Positions 16,528-28,148 of a DNA stretch of 64,000 bases are shown one piece after another (positions within the stretch are counted from its first letter, which is position 1; each line of letters begins with the position of its first letter). The position numbers and the translations under genes are program-made. The notes below the pieces were generated by a model that did not search any database, was not told the origin of the DNA, and saw nothing but the letters and a program-made list of their open reading frames with translations. Source of the DNA: Phycisphaerales bacterium Planc_01 (lineage in GTDB: Bacteria; Planctomycetota; Phycisphaerae; Sedimentisphaerales; Anaerobacaceae); the NCBI GenBank assembly GCA_001603075.1, contig LVBB01000075.1, forward strand, positions 62,657 to 126,656, in the 5' to 3' direction.

Positions 16528-16903
16528 GCGACACTTGGGGGCCCAGGCAAACGGGCGCAGGATGCGTTTATTTTTGTCAGAATTCAGGTCAGGTGAGCTT
16601 GACTTGCTAAACACATGTTTTAAGCTGTCGTATTAAGCGAATGTTTCGGAAACCAACGGTGCCTCTCCTGCGACTGTGATAGTAGTGTATCATGGTCGGC
16701 CGAACAGACGCAGCAATGGACGCATGAAGGACATGTGAAGATAAAATCTCTGCCTTCAAGAGTTTAGGGGTGTGGCAGACCGGCGGAGGACCTTGGGTGT
16801 GTGGTCCTTGCGGGCGGCGGTGTGCGGGGTTATAGTGGCGAGCTTCTCATGCGGCCTATGGCGTGGGTCGCCTTCGGTGAGTTGTCGAAAGACGGGTAGA
16901 ATC
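16528..16903. other. Intergenic region upstream of the RND operon
   Basis: No convincing gene. The part around 16560-16700 is richer in A and T than the surroundings. TTGACT at 16599-16604 is a good -35-like element but only weak -10-like bases (TAAGCT at 16621) follow at proper spacing. An in-frame GTG at 16772 could extend the adaptor gene, with a lipobox-like VASFSC, but its ribosome site is no better than that of the ATG at 16904. Confidence 0.5.
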
Positions 16904-18016
16904 ATGAGCAATCAATCGCAGAAGGGCCGGACGGCCCGAACGAGTCCCGGCCGGTTTCGGCGTATCGCGACCAAAACGGTCATCGCCCTGGTTGCGGCAG
17001 GGGCGGTCGTGGCCATCGCCATGATGCCGCAACCCAGCAGGGAGGTCCCGCCCACCGAGGCACCGCCTGTCAACGTCTCCGTGGTGACGATCGTTCCGGA
17101 GGCCGAGTTGGCCGACACATTCGTGCTGCCGGCTGTGGTCGAGCCCAATCGGGTCGTGGCCGTCTCTGCCGAGGAGGCAGCAGCCATCGAGCGTATCCCC
17201 CCGAAAGAGGGCGACGCGGTGCAGAAGGGCGATCTGCTCGTCCAGCTCAAGACGGACCTGATCCGACCGCAGTTCGCGACCGCCGAGGCGAGATACAAAC
17301 GCGATCAGATCGAATACGAACGAATGATGTCGCTGGTGAAGGACGATGCGGCGCCACAGCAGGACCTGGACAACGCCGTGACGCAACTGGCGGCCAGCAA
17401 GGCGGCGTTCGAAGAGGCCCGCGCCCGGCTGGACCGGACTCGCATCCTTTCGCCGGTTCACGGAGTGCTCAACGACCTGCTCGTCGAGGAAGGCGAATAC
17501 GTTTCGCCCGGCACCGCTGTGGCCGAAATCGTGGAGATCGACACCGTCAAGGTCGTCGTGGACATCCCCGAGAAGGACATCGGGTTCTTCTCTGTTGGGC
17601 GCGATGCCCAGATTCTCGCCGAGGTCAGAGGCTGTGAGAAGTCGGTGATGGGCAAGATCACCTACATCAGCCAGTTGGCGAACCGCCAGACACGTTCCAC
17701 GCCGGTCGAAATCACGCTGGACAATCGCCAGGGCCTGCTGCGGAGCGGGCAGATCGTCCGCGTCCGCCTGTCGCGCCGTGTGTTGAACGAGGCCATCCTG
17801 GTCCCGCTGCTGGCGGTCATTCCGCTCGAAGACGGTTACGCCGTCTATGTGGTCGAGGATTCGCAGGCCCGCCGTCGCGACGTCCAACTCGGCGTCATCA
17901 AGGGCGAACAGATCCAGATCGTCAGCGGCTTGAGGCCCGACGACAAGCTGATCGTCGCCGGACACCGCTTCCTGGCTCCCGGCCAGAACGTCAAGATCGA
18001 GTCGGAGAAGAAGTAG
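16904..18016 (+). CDS. RND efflux periplasmic adaptor subunit
   Basis: A 370-residue HlyD/AcrA-type membrane fusion protein. It has an N-terminal hydrophobic anchor (TVIALVAAGAVVAIAMM, about 25-41), a biotinyl-lipoyl-like half-motif (IERIPPKEGDAVQKGDLLVQL), a coiled-coil hairpin (about 115-170), the second half-motif (ILSPVHGVLNDLLVEEGEYV) and a beta-barrel/MP domain ending in RFLAPGQNVKIES. It bridges the inner-membrane pump to an outer-membrane channel. The pump gene starts five bases after the stop; no outer-membrane factor gene is present. The start could instead be GTG 16772. Confidence 0.9.
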   Translation: MSNQSQKGRTARTSPGRFRRIATKTVIALVAAGAVVAIAMMPQPSREVPPTEAPPVNVSVVTIVPEAELADTFVLPAVVEPNRVVAVSAEEAAAIERIPPKEGDAVQKGDLLVQLKTDLIRPQFATAEARYKRDQIEYERMMSLVKDDAAPQQDLDNAVTQLAASKAAFEEARARLDRTRILSPVHGVLNDLLVEEGEYVSPGTAVAEIVEIDTVKVVVDIPEKDIGFFSVGRDAQILAEVRGCEKSVMGKITYISQLANRQTRSTPVEITLDNRQGLLRSGQIVRVRLSRRVLNEAILVPLLAVIPLEDGYAVYVVEDSQARRRDVQLGVIKGEQIQIVSGLRPDDKLIVAGHRFLAPGQNVKIESEKK

Positions 18017-18021
18017 ACGCC

Positions 18022-21000
18022 ATGTTCCTCACCGATGCTGCGATTCGCAACCGGACCACTGTGGTCGTTCTGGGCCTGATCATCATCCTCATGGGCGCTA
18101 CGAGCTATGTGTCGCTGCCCCGCGAGGCGGCGCCGGACATCCCGATTCCCTATGTCATGGTGACGACGGTCTACGAAGGGGTTTCGCCCGAAGACATCGA
18201 GACGTCCATCACGATGAAGATCGAGAAGGAACTCAACGGGGTTCGGGGCGTCGAGGAGATCACCTCCAGCAGCGCCGAGGGCATGTCGCTGATCAGTGTG
18301 GAATTCGCCCCGGACGTGCCGAGCGAGGTGGCGCTGCAACGCGTGCGCGACCGGGTGGATCTGGCGAAAGGCGAACTGCCTCAGGATGCGGAAGAGCCGA
18401 TCATCAAGGAGATCAACTTCGCCGAGCTTCCGATCATGTTGATCAGCGTGTCGGGCGACGTCTCTCCCGTGCAGCTCAAGGCGATCGCCGATCAGGTGCA
18501 GGACGCGCTGGAAGCGACGCCGGGCGTACTCAAGGTGGAGATGGCCGGCGACCTGGAGCGGGAGATCCGCCTGGAGTTCAATCCGGACCGCCTCGCCCAG
18601 TACAACCTGACCATTCCCGAGATTCTGGCGTTGATCCCCTCGGAGAACGTCAACATCTCGGCCGGAGGTCTCGAAACGAGCGGCACGAAGTTCAACGTCC
18701 GCATTCCCGCCGAGTTCGTGACGCCGGAAGAGGTGGACCATCTGATGCTGACCGTGCGCGACGGCAAGCCGATCTATCTGGCCGACGTCGCTTCGGTGCG
18801 GTATACGTTCAAGGACCGCACCAGTTTCTCCCGCCTCGATGGGGCCGACACCATCACCCTGAGCATCAGCAAACGCGTGGGCGCCAACGCGGTGCAGATC
18901 AGTCAGTACATCAAGGCGGTGATCGCCGAGGCACAGAAACGCGTGCCGTCGGCGGTGAAGTTCGACATCACCTACGACATGTCCAAGATGATCCGCAGCA
19001 TGGTGGCCGACCTCGAGAACAACATCGCCTCGGCCCTGATCCTGGTGACGGTGGTGCTGCTGCTGTTTCTCGGGTGGCGTCCCAGCACGATCGTGGCGAT
19101 GATCATCCCGTTGAGCATGCTGATCACCTTCTTCCTGATCCAGACGCTGGGGCACACGCTGAACATGATCGTGCTGTTCAGTCTGATTCTGGTCCTGGGC
19201 ATGCTGGTGGACAACGCGATCGTGATCGTGGAGAACATCTACCGGCACCTGCAGCTCGGGTACAGCCGGATGGATGCCGCGATCCTCGGAGCCCGCGAGG
19301 TGGCCTGGCCGGTGACGACCTCGACGTTCACCACCGTCTGCGCGTTCTTGCCGATGATGTTCTGGCCGGGCGTCATGGGCGACTTCATGAAGTATCTGCC
19401 GATCACGCTGACCCTCGGCCTGTTGGCCTCGCTGTTCGTCGGTCTGGTGTTCAACCCGGTGATCTGCTCGGTCTGGGCGGGCCGGGCGCCCAAGCCACGC
19501 CAGAAGGACCATTGGTTCATCGGCAGTTACCGTCGCGTTCAGGAGGCGGGGCTGTACAATCCGGGCCTGACCTTGTTCCTGGCGTTCTGTCTGCTGGTCG
19601 GCCTGGGGATTCTGTACGCCAAGATCGGCAAGGGGACGGAGTTCTTCCCGTCGGAGGACCCCGAGCGCGCCGTCATCGACATCCGCGCGCCGCAGGGGAC
19701 CAACATCCACGAGACCGATCGGCTCGCTCGGGTGATCGAAGAGCGGCTCGTGCCGTATCGGCCCTGGCTCAAACACGTCATCACAAATGTCGGATCGGCG
19801 GGCGGGGCCAATATGGGCCTCATCGCCAGCGCCGGCGGCTCTCATCTGGCCGGCATCACCCTGGTGTTCCACGATTTCGTCGAGCGCCAGCGGCCGTCCA
19901 ACGACGTGATTGCGGAGGTCCGTGAGGCGATCGCCGATATCGCCGGCGCCGAGATCAAGATCGAGAAGGAGGAAGGGGGACCGCCGACGGGAGCGCCCGT
20001 CACTGTCCGGATCGTCGGCGAGGACTTCAAGACGCTGGAGCGGATCAGCGAGGAGGCCCGGCGCCGGATCGCCACGGTGCCCAATGTTGTGAACCTTCGC
20101 AGCGACTTCGAGGCGGCACGTCCGGAGCTGGCCTTCACGGTGGACCGTCGCGTCGCCATGCTGCTCGGCGTCAACACCGCCACCGTGGGCAACTTCCTCA
20201 AGATGGCGGTCTTCGGCAGCAAGGTCGGGACCTATCGCGAGTACAACGAGGAATACGACATCACGGTGCGCCTGCCGCTGGCGGACCGGACACGGGTCGA
20301 CGACTTGTATCGCCTGCGGATTCCCAATCCCACCGGAGAGGCCGTGGCGCTCAGTTCGCTGGGCAGTTTCACCTATCGGGGCGGGTTCGGCACGATCAAT
20401 CGGGTCGATCAGAAACGCGTCATCACCCTGACCGCCGACGCCGAGGGCCGTCTGGGTTCGGCGGTTCTGGCCGACGTGCAGAAGCAGCTTGCGTCGCTCG
20501 ATGTGCCGCTGGGCTACGAACTTCGCTATGCGGGCGAGAAGGAGGAGCAGGACAAGGCGCAGGCGTTCCTGTCGAAGGCGTTCGTGATCGCGCTGCTTCT
20601 GGTCGTCATGGTCCTCGTGGTTCAGTTCAATTCGCTCATGGTGCCGTTCATCATCATGACGACCGTAGCGCTGTCGCTGATCGGGGCGCTGGTCGGCCTG
20701 CTGGTCTGTGGGCTTCCCTTCGGCATCATCATGACGGGGATCGGCATCATCAGCCTGGCCGGCGTCGTGGTCAACAACGCGATCGTGCTGCTGGCGTACA
20801 CGCAGCAGTTGCAGCGCGAGGGGATGGACCTGATCGCGGCGGCGTCGAAGGCGGGCGTGACCCGCTTGCGGCCGGTGCTGTTGACGGCGGCGACCACGAT
20901 CATCGGCCTGATCCCCATGGCGGTCGGCGTTTCGTATGACTTCCACACCTTCAGTTGGGCCACCAAGAGCGAGTCGGCTCAGTGGTGGCGCAATATGGCG

Positions 21001-21135
21001 GTCGTCGTCATCTTCGGTCTGGCCTTCGCGACAATCCTGACGCTGGTGGTCGTCCCGTCGCTCTATGTGATGCTCACCCGCCTGACACAGTGGCTCGGCT
21101 TCGGACATGCCCGGACCGAAGAGCCGTCCGCTTAG
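18022..21135 (+). CDS. RND efflux transporter permease (AcrB/HAE-type)
   Basis: A 1037-residue inner-membrane proton-driven pump of normal length. TM1 is VVVLGLIIILMGATSYVSLP; the two large periplasmic loops with porter repeats follow; TM2-6 occupy about 335-480 and TM8-12 about 855-1025. TM4 has LVDNAIVIVENIY with Asp397 followed by Asn398 where AcrB has two Asp, so one member of the classical proton-relay pair is replaced. The second half carries LAGVVVNNAIVLL. Substrates may be hydrophobic compounds or metals; the adaptor-only operon and sequence do not tell. Translationally close to the adaptor. Confidence 0.95.
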   Translation: MFLTDAAIRNRTTVVVLGLIIILMGATSYVSLPREAAPDIPIPYVMVTTVYEGVSPEDIETSITMKIEKELNGVRGVEEITSSSAEGMSLISVEFAPDVPSEVALQRVRDRVDLAKGELPQDAEEPIIKEINFAELPIMLISVSGDVSPVQLKAIADQVQDALEATPGVLKVEMAGDLEREIRLEFNPDRLAQYNLTIPEILALIPSENVNISAGGLETSGTKFNVRIPAEFVTPEEVDHLMLTVRDGKPIYLADVASVRYTFKDRTSFSRLDGADTITLSISKRVGANAVQISQYIKAVIAEAQKRVPSAVKFDITYDMSKMIRSMVADLENNIASALILVTVVLLLFLGWRPSTIVAMIIPLSMLITFFLIQTLGHTLNMIVLFSLILVLGMLVDNAIVIVENIYRHLQLGYSRMDAAILGAREVAWPVTTSTFTTVCAFLPMMFWPGVMGDFMKYLPITLTLGLLASLFVGLVFNPVICSVWAGRAPKPRQKDHWFIGSYRRVQEAGLYNPGLTLFLAFCLLVGLGILYAKIGKGTEFFPSEDPERAVIDIRAPQGTNIHETDRLARVIEERLVPYRPWLKHVITNVGSAGGANMGLIASAGGSHLAGITLVFHDFVERQRPSNDVIAEVREAIADIAGAEIKIEKEEGGPPTGAPVTVRIVGEDFKTLERISEEARRRIATVPNVVNLRSDFEAARPELAFTVDRRVAMLLGVNTATVGNFLKMAVFGSKVGTYREYNEEYDITVRLPLADRTRVDDLYRLRIPNPTGEAVALSSLGSFTYRGGFGTINRVDQKRVITLTADAEGRLGSAVLADVQKQLASLDVPLGYELRYAGEKEEQDKAQAFLSKAFVIALLLVVMVLVVQFNSLMVPFIIMTTVALSLIGALVGLLVCGLPFGIIMTGIGIISLAGVVVNNAIVLLAYTQQLQREGMDLIAAASKAGVTRLRPVLLTAATTIIGLIPMAVGVSYDFHTFSWATKSESAQWWRNMAVVVIFGLAFATILTLVVVPSLYVMLTRLTQWLGFGHARTEEPSA

Positions 21136-21360
21136 CCGAAACCGAGCGTTGCCAAGTGCGCCGCCGTCGATTCGGACAGCGTAGCGCCGACGAGGATCCC
21201 CCCCAGGCTCCTCAGGGCGGGGGGCCGGCGAAAGTTCCTCAGAAGAGGGTCGAGTCGGCCGGCCGTTCCCGGTACAATTGTCGTGGGGCCTGGGAATCGG
21301 CGCCCATGAGGTCGTACCGGCGACGCAATCAGGCAATCGCAGGATGTATTGGAGGTGAAC

Positions 21361-24360
21361 ATGCAATCGCATAGAGGATGGCACCCCGTCAAGTGGATCG
21401 CAATCATGATCGGTCTGATGCCCGTCGCTTCGATTGGGGTCGGTGCGTCGGAGGGCATGCGGCTGGACGGCAAGTCGCCCATTTATGAGGCGCAGAGTCA
21501 GAGGTCGCTGGACCTGACGGACGAAGTGACGCTGGAGGCGTGGGTCCGGGCCGACCGGATGGGGCAGGGAGGCGGACGCATCCTCGACAAGTCCATGCCC
21601 GGAACCTCCGATGGATACATGCTCGATACCTTCCCGGGCAATTCGCTGCGTTTCGTGAACGCCAGGGGGGCCTGCACGTACGACGCCAAGCTGCCGGCCG
21701 ACCGCTGGTCGCACGTGGTCGGCGTGTACAGCGCGTCGAAGAAGATCATGAAGCTCTACCTGAACGGCCAAGAGGTCGCCAGCACCGACGGCGGGGCGTT
21801 CGTCGCCATGACGACGACGGGGATACTGCTTCGGATCGGCTGCGACCCGCGCGGGGACAATCGCTTTGTCGGGCGGATTCAACGCGCGGCGGTCTATCGG
21901 CGGGTGCTGACTGCCGACGAGATTGCGTCGCGGGCGAACCAGGCGGAACCCGCGTCACTGCGAGGCGTCGTCGGGGAGTGGGTCTTTGCCGCCGAGCCCG
22001 GTCGCAAGATCGAGCCTGTCGCCGGCCGGGTCGCGCTGGAGGTCGAGGGGCTCAACAGCAGCACGAGGTTCTGGGGCACAATTGCCGGACAGGTGTCGGC
22101 GCCAAAGGAGCCGCTGAGTCTGTGGTACCGTCAGCCGGCGGTCGAGTGGGTCGAGGCGTTGGCGGTCGGAAACGGTCGGCTGGGTGCGATGGTCTTCGGC
22201 GGGATCGACCGCGAACGCATCCAGCTCAACGAGGACACGCTCTGGGCCGGCGGGCCGTACGATCCGGCCCGTCCGGAGGCGTTGGAGGCGTTGCCCGAAG
22301 CCCGGCGGCTGATCTTCGCGGGCAAGTACCGCGAGGCCGATGCCCTCATCGGCAAGCAGATGATGTCCAGACCGCTGGGGCAGATGCCGTATCAGGTCGT
22401 GGGCGATTTGCTTCTGGCGTTTCCGAGCGCCGAGAAGGTGACGAACTATCGCCGGGACCTGAATCTCGACGAGGCCGTGGCGAGCGTGACCTATACCGTC
22501 GATGACGTGACGTTCAAACGCGAGGTCTTCTCCAGTCCCGTGGACCAGGTGATCGTCGTTCGCATCACGGCGAGCCAGCCCGGCCGGGTCTCGTTCACCG
22601 CCGGGATGAAGACGCCGCAGCGGGCTACGATCGAGGCCGAGAACTCCGATACGCTGGTGATGCGCGGCGTCAACGGCGCATCGCAAGGCATCGACGGGGC
22701 GCTGAAGTTCCAGTCGCGCGTCCGCGTTCTCACTTCCGGCGGTGCTGTCAAATCGGAGGAGGATCGCCTCACCGTGATCAACGCGGATGCGGCGACGCTG
22801 CTGGTGGCCGCGGCCACCAGCTACAAGAGCTTCAAGGACGTCAGCGGCGATCCGGAGACGCCGGCCAAAGCCGCCATCGCGGCCGCGAGCGCCAAATCGT
22901 TCGATGCCTTGCGGGCCGACCACGTCGCCGAGCATCGGCGGCTCTTCCGTCGCGTCGCGTTGGATCTTGGTGTCAGCGACGTGGCGAGTCTGCCGACCGA
23001 CGAGCGAATCCGGAATTCCATGACGAACCACGATCCGCACTTGGCGGCGCTCTATTTCCAGTTCGGCCGTTACCTGCTGATCTCCAGCTCTCGTCCCGGC
23101 ACCCAGCCGGCCAACCTTCAGGGCATCTGGAACGACAGCATGAGTCCGCCATGGAGCAGCAAATACACGATCAACATCAACACCGAGATGAACTATTGGC
23201 CCGCCGAGCCGACCGCCCTGGCCGAGTGTGTCGAGCCGCTGGTGGCGATGGTGATGGACCTGACCGAGACAGGCGCGAGGACCGCCCGCGTCAACTGGGG
23301 CGCAAGCGGCTGGGTCTGCCACCACAACACCGACCTGTGGCGGGCTTCGGGCCCGATCGACGGGCCGTTCTGGGGCTTCTGGCCGACGGGCGGGGCGTGG
23401 TTGTGCAAGCACCTCTGGGAGCACTACGAGTACGGCGGCGACCGGGCGTTCCTGGCGAGGGTGTATCCCGCGCTCAAGGGCGCGGCCCAGTTCTTCCTCG
23501 ACACGCTCGTGGAAGAACCCACGCACAAGTGGCTGGTGACGTGTCCATCCCTCTCGCCCGAGAACGGGCACAAGTACGGCGTGTCGATCTGCGCCGGGCC
23601 GACGATGGACAACCAGATCCTCCGCGATTTGTTCGCCAGTTGCATCCATGCCGCCACGATTCTGGGTGTGGATGAAGAGTTCCGGGGCAGGCTCGAAGCG
23701 ACGCGGGCACGTCTGGCCCCGGACCAGATCGGCAAGGAAGGCCAGCTCCAGGAATGGCTGGAAGACTGGGACATGGAGGCCGGCGACATCCATCACCGCC
23801 ACGTCTCGCATCTGTACGGCCTGCATCCGAGCGATCAGATCAACGTGCACGACACGCCGGAACTGGCGGCCGCCGTCCGCCGGTCGCTGGAGATTCGCGG
23901 CGACAACGCCACCGGCTGGGGCATCGGCTGGCGGATCAATCTCTGGGCGAGGCTTCAGGACGCCGAGCACACCTATCAGATTCTCAAGCTGCTGCTTGGG
24001 CCCGAGCGGACCTATCCGAACATGTTTGACGCCCACCCGCCGTTCCAGATCGACGGCAACTTCGGCGGCGCCAGCGGCATTGCCGAGATGCTCTTGCAGA
24101 CCCGCGCGCGTTTCTCCGGCTCTGCGATGACGGCGGAGATCGAACTGCTGCCCGCGCTGCCGAAGGCCTTTTCCACCGGCTCCGTCCGGGGCCTGCGAGC
24201 CAAGGGCGGGTTCGACGTGGACATCGAATGGGCCGACGGCAAGCTCGTTGCCGCGACGATCCGGTCGCGGCTGGGCAACGCGTGCCGCCTGCGCTATGGC
24301 GACGTGATCCGTGAGGCGCCGATCCAGAAGGGCGGAATCTTCCGCTGGGATGGCCGTTGA
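21361..24360 (+). CDS. GH95-family glycoside hydrolase (alpha-L-fucosidase-like) with N-terminal LamG domain
   Basis: A 999-residue secreted enzyme. Residues 1-25 are a signal peptide; about 30-210 form a concanavalin-like LamG domain (SLDLTDEVTLEAWVRADRMG, KIMKLYLNGQEV); from about 255 to the end is GH95. Family blocks include ALAVGNGRLGAMVFGG, LNEDTLWAGGPYDP, NINTEMNYWPAEP with the catalytic-region Asn residues, SPENGHKYG, HRHVSHLYGLHPS, TGWGIGWRINLWARLQD and FQIDGNFGGASG. GH95 inverts alpha-1,2-L-fucosides or alpha-L-galactosides, both found on plant cell-wall polymers. GGAGGT precedes the ATG; a weak promoter-like TACAAT lies at 21273. First gene of a three-gene pectin-related operon. The spacer 21136-21360 also has a C6/G6 inverted run at 21199-21224. 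Confidence 0.92.
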   Translation: MQSHRGWHPVKWIAIMIGLMPVASIGVGASEGMRLDGKSPIYEAQSQRSLDLTDEVTLEAWVRADRMGQGGGRILDKSMPGTSDGYMLDTFPGNSLRFVNARGACTYDAKLPADRWSHVVGVYSASKKIMKLYLNGQEVASTDGGAFVAMTTTGILLRIGCDPRGDNRFVGRIQRAAVYRRVLTADEIASRANQAEPASLRGVVGEWVFAAEPGRKIEPVAGRVALEVEGLNSSTRFWGTIAGQVSAPKEPLSLWYRQPAVEWVEALAVGNGRLGAMVFGGIDRERIQLNEDTLWAGGPYDPARPEALEALPEARRLIFAGKYREADALIGKQMMSRPLGQMPYQVVGDLLLAFPSAEKVTNYRRDLNLDEAVASVTYTVDDVTFKREVFSSPVDQVIVVRITASQPGRVSFTAGMKTPQRATIEAENSDTLVMRGVNGASQGIDGALKFQSRVRVLTSGGAVKSEEDRLTVINADAATLLVAAATSYKSFKDVSGDPETPAKAAIAAASAKSFDALRADHVAEHRRLFRRVALDLGVSDVASLPTDERIRNSMTNHDPHLAALYFQFGRYLLISSSRPGTQPANLQGIWNDSMSPPWSSKYTININTEMNYWPAEPTALAECVEPLVAMVMDLTETGARTARVNWGASGWVCHHNTDLWRASGPIDGPFWGFWPTGGAWLCKHLWEHYEYGGDRAFLARVYPALKGAAQFFLDTLVEEPTHKWLVTCPSLSPENGHKYGVSICAGPTMDNQILRDLFASCIHAATILGVDEEFRGRLEATRARLAPDQIGKEGQLQEWLEDWDMEAGDIHHRHVSHLYGLHPSDQINVHDTPELAAAVRRSLEIRGDNATGWGIGWRINLWARLQDAEHTYQILKLLLGPERTYPNMFDAHPPFQIDGNFGGASGIAEMLLQTRARFSGSAMTAEIELLPALPKAFSTGSVRGLRAKGGFDVDIEWADGKLVAATIRSRLGNACRLRYGDVIREAPIQKGGIFRWDGR

Positions 24361-24376
24361 GACGGAAGGACAGGCG

Positions 24377-25414
24377 ATGAAAGACGCGAAGAACCATGCG
24401 CTGATGGGCGCTGCGGTGTTCGTCGGGTTGTTTGTCGGGGTCTCGTTCTGCGGCGCTGCCGAGCCGGAGATGCTCCGGCTCAGCGGCGATACCGGCGTGC
24501 ACGATCCGGTCATCATCAAAGAGGGCGATACGTATTACGTCTTCGCCACCGGCGGCCGCCGCGGGCGCGGGTTTGTCCCGATCCACGCCTCGAAGGACCT
24601 GCGACACTGGCGCGTGATCGGCCACGTGTTCGAGGAACTGCCCGAATGGGCGCCGAAGGAGATTCCGGGCACGCGCGGGATCTGGGCGCCGGACATCTCG
24701 TTCTTCAATGGCAAGTATCACCTGTATTACTCCATCTCGACCTTCGGCAAGAACAGCTCGGCCATCGGTCTGACCGTCAACGAGACGCTCGACCCGAACA
24801 GCCCAAGGTACAAGTGGGTCGATCGGGGCATGGTCGTCCGCTCGACCGAGGGCGCCGACGACTGGAACGCCATCGACGGCAATATCGCGATCGACGACAA
24901 CGGGCGCGTCTGGTTGAACTGGGGCAGCTTCTGGGGTGGGATCAAGATGAGGCGGATCGACCCCGCGACGGGCATGCTCTCGAAGGAAGATACCACGCTG
25001 TATTCGCTGGCGAGCCGGCCCCGGTCCGGCGCGCATCAGACGCCGCCGGTTGTGGGTGCGATCGAGGCGCCGTTCCTCATCCGACACGGCGAGTATTGGT
25101 CTCTGTTCGTATCCTTCGACTTCTGCTGTCGCGGCGCCAAGAGCACGTACAACGTTCGGGTCGGGCGCTCTCGCGACATCACGGGGCCCTACGTGGACAG
25201 GGACGGCACGCCCATGATGGAGGGAGGCGGGACACTCGTTATCGAGGCCACGGAGGGGGCCTGGCGCGGCGCGGGCCATCAGGCTGTGCTGCGGGAGGGC
25301 GGCGTCGATTATCTCGTGTTCCACGCCTACGACGCTACGACAGGGCGCAGCCATCTGCAAATCTCGACGATGGTGTGGGAGGACGGCTGGCCGCGAGTGG
25401 CGTCTTTGCCTTGA
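24377..25414 (+). CDS. Glycoside hydrolase family 43 (arabinan-active type)
   Basis: A 345-residue secreted five-bladed propeller with a signal peptide (ALMGAAVFVGLFVGVSFCGAA). The GH43 catalytic triad is visible as D43 in VHDPVI (base), D167 in AIDGN (pKa modulator) and E230 in GAIEAPFLI (acid). TRGIWAPDISFFNGKYHLYY and the spacing match arabinan endo-1,5-alpha-L-arabinanases and related arabinofuranosidases. The ATG at 24377 follows GAAGGA and lies 16 bases after the GH95 stop; the pectate/rhamnogalacturonan lyase gene starts 25 bases after its own stop, so the three are almost certainly one transcript. Confidence 0.92.
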   Translation: MKDAKNHALMGAAVFVGLFVGVSFCGAAEPEMLRLSGDTGVHDPVIIKEGDTYYVFATGGRRGRGFVPIHASKDLRHWRVIGHVFEELPEWAPKEIPGTRGIWAPDISFFNGKYHLYYSISTFGKNSSAIGLTVNETLDPNSPRYKWVDRGMVVRSTEGADDWNAIDGNIAIDDNGRVWLNWGSFWGGIKMRRIDPATGMLSKEDTTLYSLASRPRSGAHQTPPVVGAIEAPFLIRHGEYWSLFVSFDFCCRGAKSTYNVRVGRSRDITGPYVDRDGTPMMEGGGTLVIEATEGAWRGAGHQAVLREGGVDYLVFHAYDATTGRSHLQISTMVWEDGWPRVASLP

Positions 25415-25439: not shown

Positions 25440-28148
25440 ATGAAGGTGGTCGCTGCGATCGGTGTGTTTCTCGCGATATCGTCTGGCAACGCCGCTCTTT
25501 CGTTGGAGCGGCTGGATCGCGGCGTCGTCGCGGTGGCCACGTCCGAAGGCCACGTCTATATCGGCTGGCGTCTGCTGGCCTCCGACCCGCCCGGCGTTGG
25601 CTTCGACGTGCTGCGATCCGCCGAGGCCAAGGGCGCATACGAACGACTGAACGACAAGCCCATCACGGACTCCTGCAACTTCGTTGACGCCAGCGCCGAT
25701 GGCAAGCGATGGCACTACGCTGTCGAGGCCAGGGCCGGTGAAGCGACGGAGCGATCCGATGCCGTTAAGGCGGAGGCGGCGGGATATCTGGCGATCCCAC
25801 TGCAAGGCAACTACGGCGCGAACAAGGTGGCCATCGCCGATCTCGACGGGGACGGCGTGTACGATTACGTGATCAAGCAGCCGGCGTGGTCGCTCGATCC
25901 CGGCCGGCAACGCCGCAGCCCGGACACGTACAAGATCGAGGCCTACCACGGCCGGACCGGCCGGTTTATGTGGCGATACGATCTCGGATGGAACATCAAC
26001 CTGGGCATCTGGTTTTCGCCGATGGTGGCCTACGATTTCGACGGCGACGGCAGGGCGGAGGTCGCGCTGAAGACCGCTCCCTATGCGGCGAGGCCCGAAG
26101 AGGCGTTCCTCAGCCCCGGCGGCTTCGTGCTGGAAGGGCCGGAGTACTGTTCGATCCTCGACGGCGTGACGGGCGAAGAGATCGACAAGGTCGATTGGAT
26201 CGCGCGGGGCGACCCGCGCGACTGGGGCGACGACCAGGGCAACCGCGTCAATCGCAACCAGATCGGCGTGGCCTATCTCGACGGCAAGCGGCCCAGCCTG
26301 CTGGTCCTGCGCGGCACGTACACCACGATGCGGATCGACGCCTACAATCTGATCGACAGGAAGCTGCGCGAGGTCTGGTCGTGGTCCGGGGAGGATGAAG
26401 AGCCGCCCTTGCGCGGGCAGGGGGGCCATACGCTCAAGGCGTTCGATCTCGACGGCGACGGCAAGGACGAGGTGATCATCGGCTCGGCGGCCATCGACAA
26501 CGACGGCACGTGTCTGTGGCGGATGGACATGGGACACCCCGACTGGTTCTACCTCGCCGATATCGACACGGCCCGTCCGGGGTTGGAGATCGCCTACGGC
26601 TTCGAGACCGCCCAGCCGCGTAACGGCATCTGCCTGGCCGATCCGCGCACGGGCCGGATTCTCTGGGGCTGCGACCATCCCACCACGCACATTCACGACT
26701 GGGGCATGGTGGCTGACATCGACCCGGACAGTCCCGGTATGGAAATCTACGGGATGGAACGGGACGGCGTGACCTGCTGGCTCTACAGCGCCCAAGGCAA
26801 GCTGCTGGCGCGCAACGAAGACCTCGGGCGCCACGGCCCGCGGACGTTCTACTGGCTCGACGGCCCGACGAAGGTCCGCGTGCCGTTCAGCTATCGCGGC
26901 GGCACATTCGGGATTCTGCGATACAAGGGCCCGCAGGTCGGCGAGATTCAGGGCCAGCCCATCGCCATCGCCGATGTGCTCGGCGACTGGCGCGAAGAGG
27001 TCATCACCGTCACCGACGGCGTCATTCGCATCTACACGACCACGGTCCCGGCGACGAGCCGGAGGGTCTGCCTGATGCAGGACCACCTGTATCGCATGGA
27101 CGTGGCGATGCAGGCGATGGGCTATTTCTATCCGCCCCAGCTCGGCGGCAGCCCTCTTGTGCCTGCACTGACTCGGCTGTCCCGGCGCGACTATCGCGAC
27201 GGGCCGGAGCAGTGGTATCGCAGTGAGGAGGGCACCCGCATTGTGGATAACGTCCTCTCCTGGCAATCGCCACAGGGCAGTTGGCCCAAGAACACGGATA
27301 CGATGTCCCATGCCTTTTCCGGCTCGCCAAGCGACTTGCGGGGCACCTTCGACAACGGCGCAACGGTGGATGAGCTGCGATTGGTAGCCAGGGCCTTCCG
27401 CGCGACGGGCGAGAAGCGGTATGAGCGAGCATTCGTCAAGGGGCTCGACCACATCCTCGAAGCGCAGTATCCCACCGGTGGCTGGCCGCAGTACTATCCG
27501 CCCGGCAGAGGGTACCCGCGGCACATCACGTTCAACGACGGGACGATGATTCGTTTGATGATCTTCCTGCGTGAAGTAGCGACGTCGGCGGATTATGGGT
27601 TCGTCGATGCAACTCGGCGCGAAGTGGCCCAGGCCGCCGTGGATCGCGGTGTCCAGTGTGTTCTCGCATGCCAGATCGTTGTCGATGGGAAGCGAACCGC
27701 CTGGTGCGCCCAGCATGACGAGGTCGATTACCGCCCGCGTCCGGCTCGAACCTACGAACTGGTCTCTCTCAGCGGCGCCGAAAGCGTTGGCATCCTGCAG
27801 TTCCTGATGAGCCTGGACGATCCGAGTCCTGAGGTTGCCGAGGCTGTCGCGGCCGGCGTCGCGTGGTTCGAATCCATCAAGCTGACGGGCGTTCGGTTGA
27901 CCACGGTCGATGGCAATCGGGTCATCGTCGATGACCCCGACGCGCCGCCTCTATGGGCGCGCTTCTATGAGATCGGGACGAACCGCCCGATCTTCTCCGG
28001 ACGCGACGGCGTCAAGAAGTACAGCATGACGGAGATCGAGGCCGAACGGCGAAACGGATACGCATGGTACGGCCGCTGGGGCCAGTCGCTGGCCTCCGAT
28101 TACGCTGCCTGGCGTGCGAAGTGGCCGACGCAGACGGCCCACGACTGA
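25440..28148 (+). CDS. PL11 rhamnogalacturonan lyase fused to PL10 pectate lyase
   Basis: A 902-residue secreted protein made of two lyases. Residues about 20-590 are PL11: an N-terminal LDRGVVAVATSEGHVYIGWR strand region, then the calcium-binding eight-bladed propeller with repeated DLDGDGVYDY, DFDGDGRAEV and DLDGDGKDEV loops. Residues about 600-900 are PL10: IVDNVLSWQSPQGSWPKN, TFDNGATVDELR, QYPTGGWPQYYP, HITFNDGTMIR and a C-terminal barrel with ELVSLSGAES and YGRWGQSLASDY. PL11 cuts rhamnogalacturonan-I between Rha and GalA; PL10 cuts polygalacturonate. Joining the two gives one enzyme for both pectin backbones. GGAGG precedes the ATG. Normal free-standing PL11 ends near 600, so this is a true fusion rather than a long variant. 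Confidence 0.92.
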   Translation: MKVVAAIGVFLAISSGNAALSLERLDRGVVAVATSEGHVYIGWRLLASDPPGVGFDVLRSAEAKGAYERLNDKPITDSCNFVDASADGKRWHYAVEARAGEATERSDAVKAEAAGYLAIPLQGNYGANKVAIADLDGDGVYDYVIKQPAWSLDPGRQRRSPDTYKIEAYHGRTGRFMWRYDLGWNINLGIWFSPMVAYDFDGDGRAEVALKTAPYAARPEEAFLSPGGFVLEGPEYCSILDGVTGEEIDKVDWIARGDPRDWGDDQGNRVNRNQIGVAYLDGKRPSLLVLRGTYTTMRIDAYNLIDRKLREVWSWSGEDEEPPLRGQGGHTLKAFDLDGDGKDEVIIGSAAIDNDGTCLWRMDMGHPDWFYLADIDTARPGLEIAYGFETAQPRNGICLADPRTGRILWGCDHPTTHIHDWGMVADIDPDSPGMEIYGMERDGVTCWLYSAQGKLLARNEDLGRHGPRTFYWLDGPTKVRVPFSYRGGTFGILRYKGPQVGEIQGQPIAIADVLGDWREEVITVTDGVIRIYTTTVPATSRRVCLMQDHLYRMDVAMQAMGYFYPPQLGGSPLVPALTRLSRRDYRDGPEQWYRSEEGTRIVDNVLSWQSPQGSWPKNTDTMSHAFSGSPSDLRGTFDNGATVDELRLVARAFRATGEKRYERAFVKGLDHILEAQYPTGGWPQYYPPGRGYPRHITFNDGTMIRLMIFLREVATSADYGFVDATRREVAQAAVDRGVQCVLACQIVVDGKRTAWCAQHDEVDYRPRPARTYELVSLSGAESVGILQFLMSLDDPSPEVAEAVAAGVAWFESIKLTGVRLTTVDGNRVIVDDPDAPPLWARFYEIGTNRPIFSGRDGVKKYSMTEIEAERRNGYAWYGRWGQSLASDYAAWRAKWPTQTAHD

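Follow-up and report, generated by a model that had tools for sequence, protein, structure and literature searches.

We identified a gene that joins a PL11-type domain to a PL10 pectate lyase domain in a single reading frame (25440..28148, + strand). The gene lies in the window, a 64,000-nucleotide stretch of contig C75 of the 5.65-Mb genome G000. It probably arose by in-frame deletion and encodes a secreted two-domain polysaccharide lyase, in which a pectate lyase is paired with a PL11-fold lyase that most likely acts on RG-I. The protein is a new combination of known families and not a new kind of system. The fusion looks recent and so far unique, and it is apparently confined to one species-level genome.

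The fused gene was delimited by its open reading frame, Pfam matches, an AF2 model and comparison with PDB structures. The frame opens with ATG. As the initial annotation had stated, it comprises 902 codons (902 amino acids) with zero internal stops. The sequence blocks which that annotation had listed are likewise all present: three DxDGDG loops in the PL11 half (DLDGDG, DFDGDG and DLDGDG), QYPTGGWPQYYP and TFNDGTMIR. Residues 1-18 (MKVVAAIGVFLAISSGNA, 25440..25493, + strand) read by eye as a putative Sec signal peptide, which would be the only one for the two catalytic-type domains in this open reading frame.

The PL11-type domain (residues 22-567; 25503..27140, + strand) consists of an N-terminal beta-sheet domain and a propeller, and it falls in a divergent clade that we call HxH. 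It matches Pfam RGI_lyase (residues 22-110, 2.1e-16, 60.5 bits, cut-off 27.8) and RGL11_C (residues 124-567, 5.7e-96, 322.7 bits, cut-off 27). The PL10 domain (residues 581-893; 27180..28118, + strand) matches Pfam Pec_lyase (residues 609-884, 1.6e-101, 339.9 bits, cut-off 22) and the NCBIfam pectate lyase equivalog TIGR02474 over the same residues (301.8 bits, cut-off 189.8). Sequence matches in the PDB divide in the same way, with the three PL11 lyases of solved structure (4cag, YesW and YesX) over about residues 19-569 and PL10 enzymes, including Pel10A (1gxm, residues 601-885), in the second half. A short, disordered linker (residues 568-584; 27141..27191, + strand) connects the domains, and the junction alignment places the fusion point between 27149 and 27180 (+ strand). 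The PL11 profiles end at residue 567 and PL10 is recovered past residue 600, so the domain search bears out the claimed order of domains. A frameshift or a pair of adjacent genes can be discarded: there is one frame, with in-frame homology on either side.

We modelled the fusion protein with AF2, using 28 PL11 and 12 PL10 homologues as input. The mean pLDDT is 89.1, and the only stretches under 50 are residues 1-21, 568-584 and 899-902. Residues about 17-579 of the model match YesX (Z 43.5) and YesW (Z 42.2) at 35-38% identity in the structure comparison, which adds the propeller fold to the RGI_lyase and RGL11_C family matches. Residues 581-893 match Pel10A (Z 33.5-33.8, rmsd 2.3-2.4 over 298-299 residues), as expected for the (alpha/alpha)3 toroid fold of PL10. 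The model suggests two independently folded domains on either side of a short flexible linker; their relative orientation is not reliable at a pTM of 0.65.

The fusion gene sits among other pectin genes. Upstream are a GH95-type gene with an N-terminal LamG-like domain (21349..24360, + strand) and a GH43 arabinanase-type gene (24380..25414, + strand) that ends 25 bp before the fusion gene, both assigned by Pfam. An NCBIfam AbnA-like match of the GH43 gene is below the cut-off of that model. The GH95 and GH43 genes are common to G000, G005 and G002, with synteny of the GH95 gene extending to G003. The pectin genes are immediately preceded, on the same strand, by genes for an RND efflux adaptor and permease (16772-21135). 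Downstream of the fusion gene, G000 and G001 share a convergent isomerase gene. Rfam and promoter scans returned nothing useful.

Comparison with congeners points to the origin of the fusion. In G001 and G005, PL11, GH2-type and PL10 genes follow one another as three separate open reading frames, the middle one encoding a 1100-aa protein with an F5/8 C domain. Both genomes have 3451 bp between the point where PL11 homology ends and the point where PL10 homology begins. This segment of about 3.45 kb is missing in the window, and the reading frames are continuous across the junction. PL11 homology stops at residue 570 (PPQLGG), after which the congeners add just RLLKSATSREK/N. In the junction alignment, the linker SPLVPALTRLSRRDYRD resembles the end of the G001 PL10 signal peptide VCLLPVLAAGSWRDYRD. 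Most simply, this short stretch would be a decayed remnant of the PL10 signal peptide; it has diverged from the relatives' sequence and has no usable cleavage motif at its end.

The G001 and G005 arrangements show what separates the two forms, and we infer the direction of change: an in-frame loss of about 3.45 kb within the genus would have created the fusion gene. The loss would have removed the last ~9-10 residues of PL11, the entire GH2-type gene, and the start of PL10 with its signal peptide, leaving a single signal peptide to export both domains. No GH2 orthologue was found in G000, where the best paralogue has 48% identity, compared with 91% for the orthologue in G001 and 83% in G002. 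Relocation of the GH2 gene within G000 was rejected, as only these 46-48% paralogues are present. The sole PL10 found in G000 is the PL10 half of the fusion. The congener G002 carries a different arrangement, a PL10-GH78 fusion (L134:7280-10981) that follows syntenic GH95, GH43 and GH2 genes; no PL11 gene was found at this locus.

The fusion is known from one draft, MAG-like assembly (162 contigs, 3.84% contamination), a provenance that raises the question of whether the assembler left out 3.45 kb of an ordinary three-gene locus. A second observation in the group leans the same way. The G005 PL11 orthologue (L132:5760-7094) has no counterpart to an internal stretch at about residues 214-331 of the window protein, and the flanking matches overlap by a repeat-like 25 bp. 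The overlap suggests that sequence between similar propeller blades was either deleted or collapsed during assembly, and events of this kind may therefore happen in these genomes. For the fusion gene we nevertheless judge an artefact very improbable. The window sequence contains no N, the junction is in frame, GH2 is absent from the rest of the G000 assembly, and the linker has diverged as described above. The two deletion ends have no match longer than 8 bp in common, as is also the case for shuffled sequence, and repeat-mediated misassembly was rejected for want of a shared repeat. Both halves are under purifying selection as judged from dN/dS (0.10-0.15 in the PL11 half, 0.13-0.17 in the PL10 half), at values comparable to those of the separate genes. 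The lack of a repeat at the deletion ends and the selection on both halves together argue against misassembly, and we take the fusion as real.

The two halves differ in divergence. Relative to G001, dS is 0.67 in the PL10 half and 0.32 in the PL11 half, and identity falls from 86-94% before 27180 to 77-86% after it. Synonymous divergence across 27180-28145, at about twice that of the PL11 half, also exceeds that at the start of the next gene. That gene is back at about 90% identity to G001 in its first part, with 82% over its final stretch. Exchange with a related lineage by recombination may account for the divergence of the PL10 half, and its doubled dS implies that the history may include recombination as well as deletion. 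We also considered a foreign origin on the basis of base composition, since GC3 in the PL10 half is 0.77, low for the locus. This was set aside because the PL10 genes of G001, G005 and G002 have similar values (0.76-0.81). Paralogy was rejected too, as the PL10 half groups with the PL10 genes of congeners (4 rows, support 96/81; 5 rows, support 100/99).

The PL10 half has a complete active site. Four residues align with Pel10A: D638 (27351..27353) with D389, D700 (27537..27539) with the Ca2+ residue D451, R770 (27747..27749) with the catalytic base R524, and E781 (27780..27782) with E535 (all + strand). Each is invariant across 101 rows. The roles of D451, R524 and E535 are described in PMC10992409, and D389 is the residue altered in the 1gxo mutant. 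The fusion also keeps 45 of 46 near-invariant PL10 columns. Because all known catalytic and Ca2+ residues are retained, cleavage of homogalacturonan by the PL10 half is strongly predicted. By family, the domain would be a pectate lyase that depends on Ca2+ and works by beta-elimination; R770 would be the base, and D638 and D700 would lie at the Ca2+/substrate site.

The PL11 half departs from the studied enzymes at its site. In YesW numbering, Arg452 and Lys535 are described as stabilising substrate carboxylates (PMC8787155). The fusion protein instead has W421, in the clade motif H417-I-H419-D-W421 (26688..26702, + strand), aligned with Arg452, and Q504 (26949..26951, + strand) aligned with Lys535. 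The position of YesW Asp172 is occupied by Q147. Other functional residues are kept: H330, H366, D368 and E389 correspond to the Ca-coordinating His363, His399, Asp401 and Glu422 of YesW, and Y562 to the stacking Tyr595 (roles in PMC8787155).

These substitutions are shared by a large group of proteins. A tree of 34 PL11 rows separates an R/K clade, which includes YesW, from the HxH clade (support 100/99), and the split amounts to one change on the tree. The HxH clade comprises 22 of the 34 rows, the fusion protein among them, all without the YesW Arg452 and Lys535. The first His of the motif is conserved in 20 of the 21 other clade members and absent from the R/K clade. The fusion protein keeps 133 of 137 clade-conserved columns, so the altered site is a property of the clade and not the decay of one gene. 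PL11-fold proteins that lack the canonical Arg/Lys occur at L002, L007, L025-L029, L152, L153 and other loci and possibly have a separate activity. Their hosts belong to Planctomycetota, Verrucomicrobiota (the phylum of L111) and KSB1, and the genes are often beside a canonical PL11 gene. Our literature search found no characterised member of the HxH clade.

A lyase acting on an RG-type backbone is the likeliest function of the PL11 half, because this half retains the stacking Tyr along with the Ca-site His, Asp and Glu residues, and because the GH95 and GH43 neighbours fit pectin. As a propeller lyase that binds Ca2+, the half would most likely have the Rha-GalA backbone of an RG-I-type polymer as its target. 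Activity as a rhamnogalacturonan lyase is plausible and stays uncertain because the equivalents of R452 and K535 are missing. Their replacement might instead mean that the HxH site serves a lyase that attacks some other linkage or uronic-acid polymer, such as an RG-I with different decorations or a further glycan of Rha and uronate, in which case the protein would not be the usual kind of enzyme for homogalacturonan and RG-I. The well-supported split between the clades, achieved in a single change, and the near-universal first His of the motif fit such a specialisation, as does the co-occurrence of both PL11 types in many genomes, where they are neighbours in several (G034, G002, G003 and G1238). 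We nonetheless consider a different substrate unlikely, given the conserved Ca ligands and Y562 and given that the occurrence beside canonical PL11 genes and the GH95/GH43 neighbourhood both fit RG-I. Loss of both carboxylate-binding residues, and of Asp172 as well, could even indicate a propeller without catalytic activity, which binds pectin in a Ca-dependent manner and serves to target the PL10 lyase. We regard this as improbable: with nearly all clade-conserved columns retained and dN/dS at about 0.1, and with the altered site found clade-wide and mostly in proteins without PL10, a functional variant is indicated and not the decay of one copy.

The protein is thus most likely a secreted bifunctional lyase: next to the pectate lyase it has a variant lyase of PL11 fold, whose probable target is a backbone of RG-I type. 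The initial annotation had proposed one secreted enzyme for homogalacturonan and RG-I. The single polypeptide, the signal-like N-terminus, the intact folds and the complete set of PL10 residues agree with that proposal, but W421 and Q504 make its RG-I part uncertain. Tethering would deliver both activities in equal amounts to one pectin chain. A bolder account, which we hold tentatively, is of a newborn pectinase made by in-frame deletion between two genes of the cluster, in which a pectate lyase is joined to a PL11-fold partner lyase. The uncharacterised clade of that partner would have a His-based active site, and possibly a substrate, of its own. If so, the separate-gene and PL10-GH78 versions in the genus would be natural controls for the effect of tethering. 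Much the same domains could be compared in the form of two separate secreted enzymes from one species and of a single tethered enzyme from its congener, a matched pair in which the benefit of fusing catalytic domains can be measured directly. Public annotation would describe the large HxH clade as rhamnogalacturonan lyases, and these labels need a test because the clade lacks two residues with which the studied enzymes bind substrate.

We searched approximately 1,550 distinct genomes for proteins that span both domains and found one match, the window itself. The search covered the order of the host (161 genomes), its phylum, Bacteroidota, Verrucomicrobiota and the phyla of loci L054 and L124; some of the searches scored only the best 2 candidates per genome and may thus have overlooked a rare case. 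A profile scan of all open reading frames of 174 loci identified 53 with PL11, 120 with PL10 and one with both. Long PL10 or PL11 frames were also scanned as candidate PL11-PL10 fusions; none contained both domains, and those inspected had other partners or no recognised partner. Partners of PL10 include GH78, CE8, GH28, BNR, GDSL/feruloyl-esterase-like and Sde182-like domains. At L159:3998-6415, PL10 is fused to an Sde182-type module that is nucleoside hydrolase-like and cellulose-binding. We found no report of a PL11-PL10 protein in the literature. The statement that each family is usually a separate enzyme thus holds for this pair, with no second case in these genomes and loci, but not for PL10 as such, for which fusions to other catalytic domains are common.

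The closest relatives of the PL11 half are YesW, YesX and B. licheniformis Rgl11 (2z8r, 2zuy and 4cag), which share the fold of residues 17-579, the Ca-site His, Asp and Glu, and the stacking Tyr. Unlike them, the fusion protein lacks equivalents of Arg452, Lys535 and Asp172, belongs to the HxH clade and has PL10 attached. Residues 581-893 share the fold of Cellvibrio Pel10A (1gxm, 1gxn and 1gxo) and Azospirillum PelA (1r76), with 38% identity to Pel10A and all of its known active-site residues. In contrast to these enzymes, the PL10 half has no signal peptide of its own and is joined to a PL11-type domain. The PL10-GH78 fusions of G002 (L134) and G1234 (L156:2120-5863) are likewise secreted and combine two enzymes, one of them a related PL10. 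Their partner is instead a C-terminal GH78-type alpha-L-rhamnosidase, their PL10 has its own N-terminal signal, and G002 keeps the GH2 gene. CE12:(CBM35):PL11_1 proteins such as HUW50_16055 (PMC10483417) also combine a PL11 domain with a second catalytic domain for pectin, but the partner is an acetylesterase, the PL11 is annotated as subfamily 1 and PL10 is absent. CE8-PL10, PL10-GH28 and GDSL-PL10 proteins (L169, L164, L168 and L163) similarly join PL10 to another pectin-active domain; unlike these, the fusion protein described here carries a PL11-type domain.
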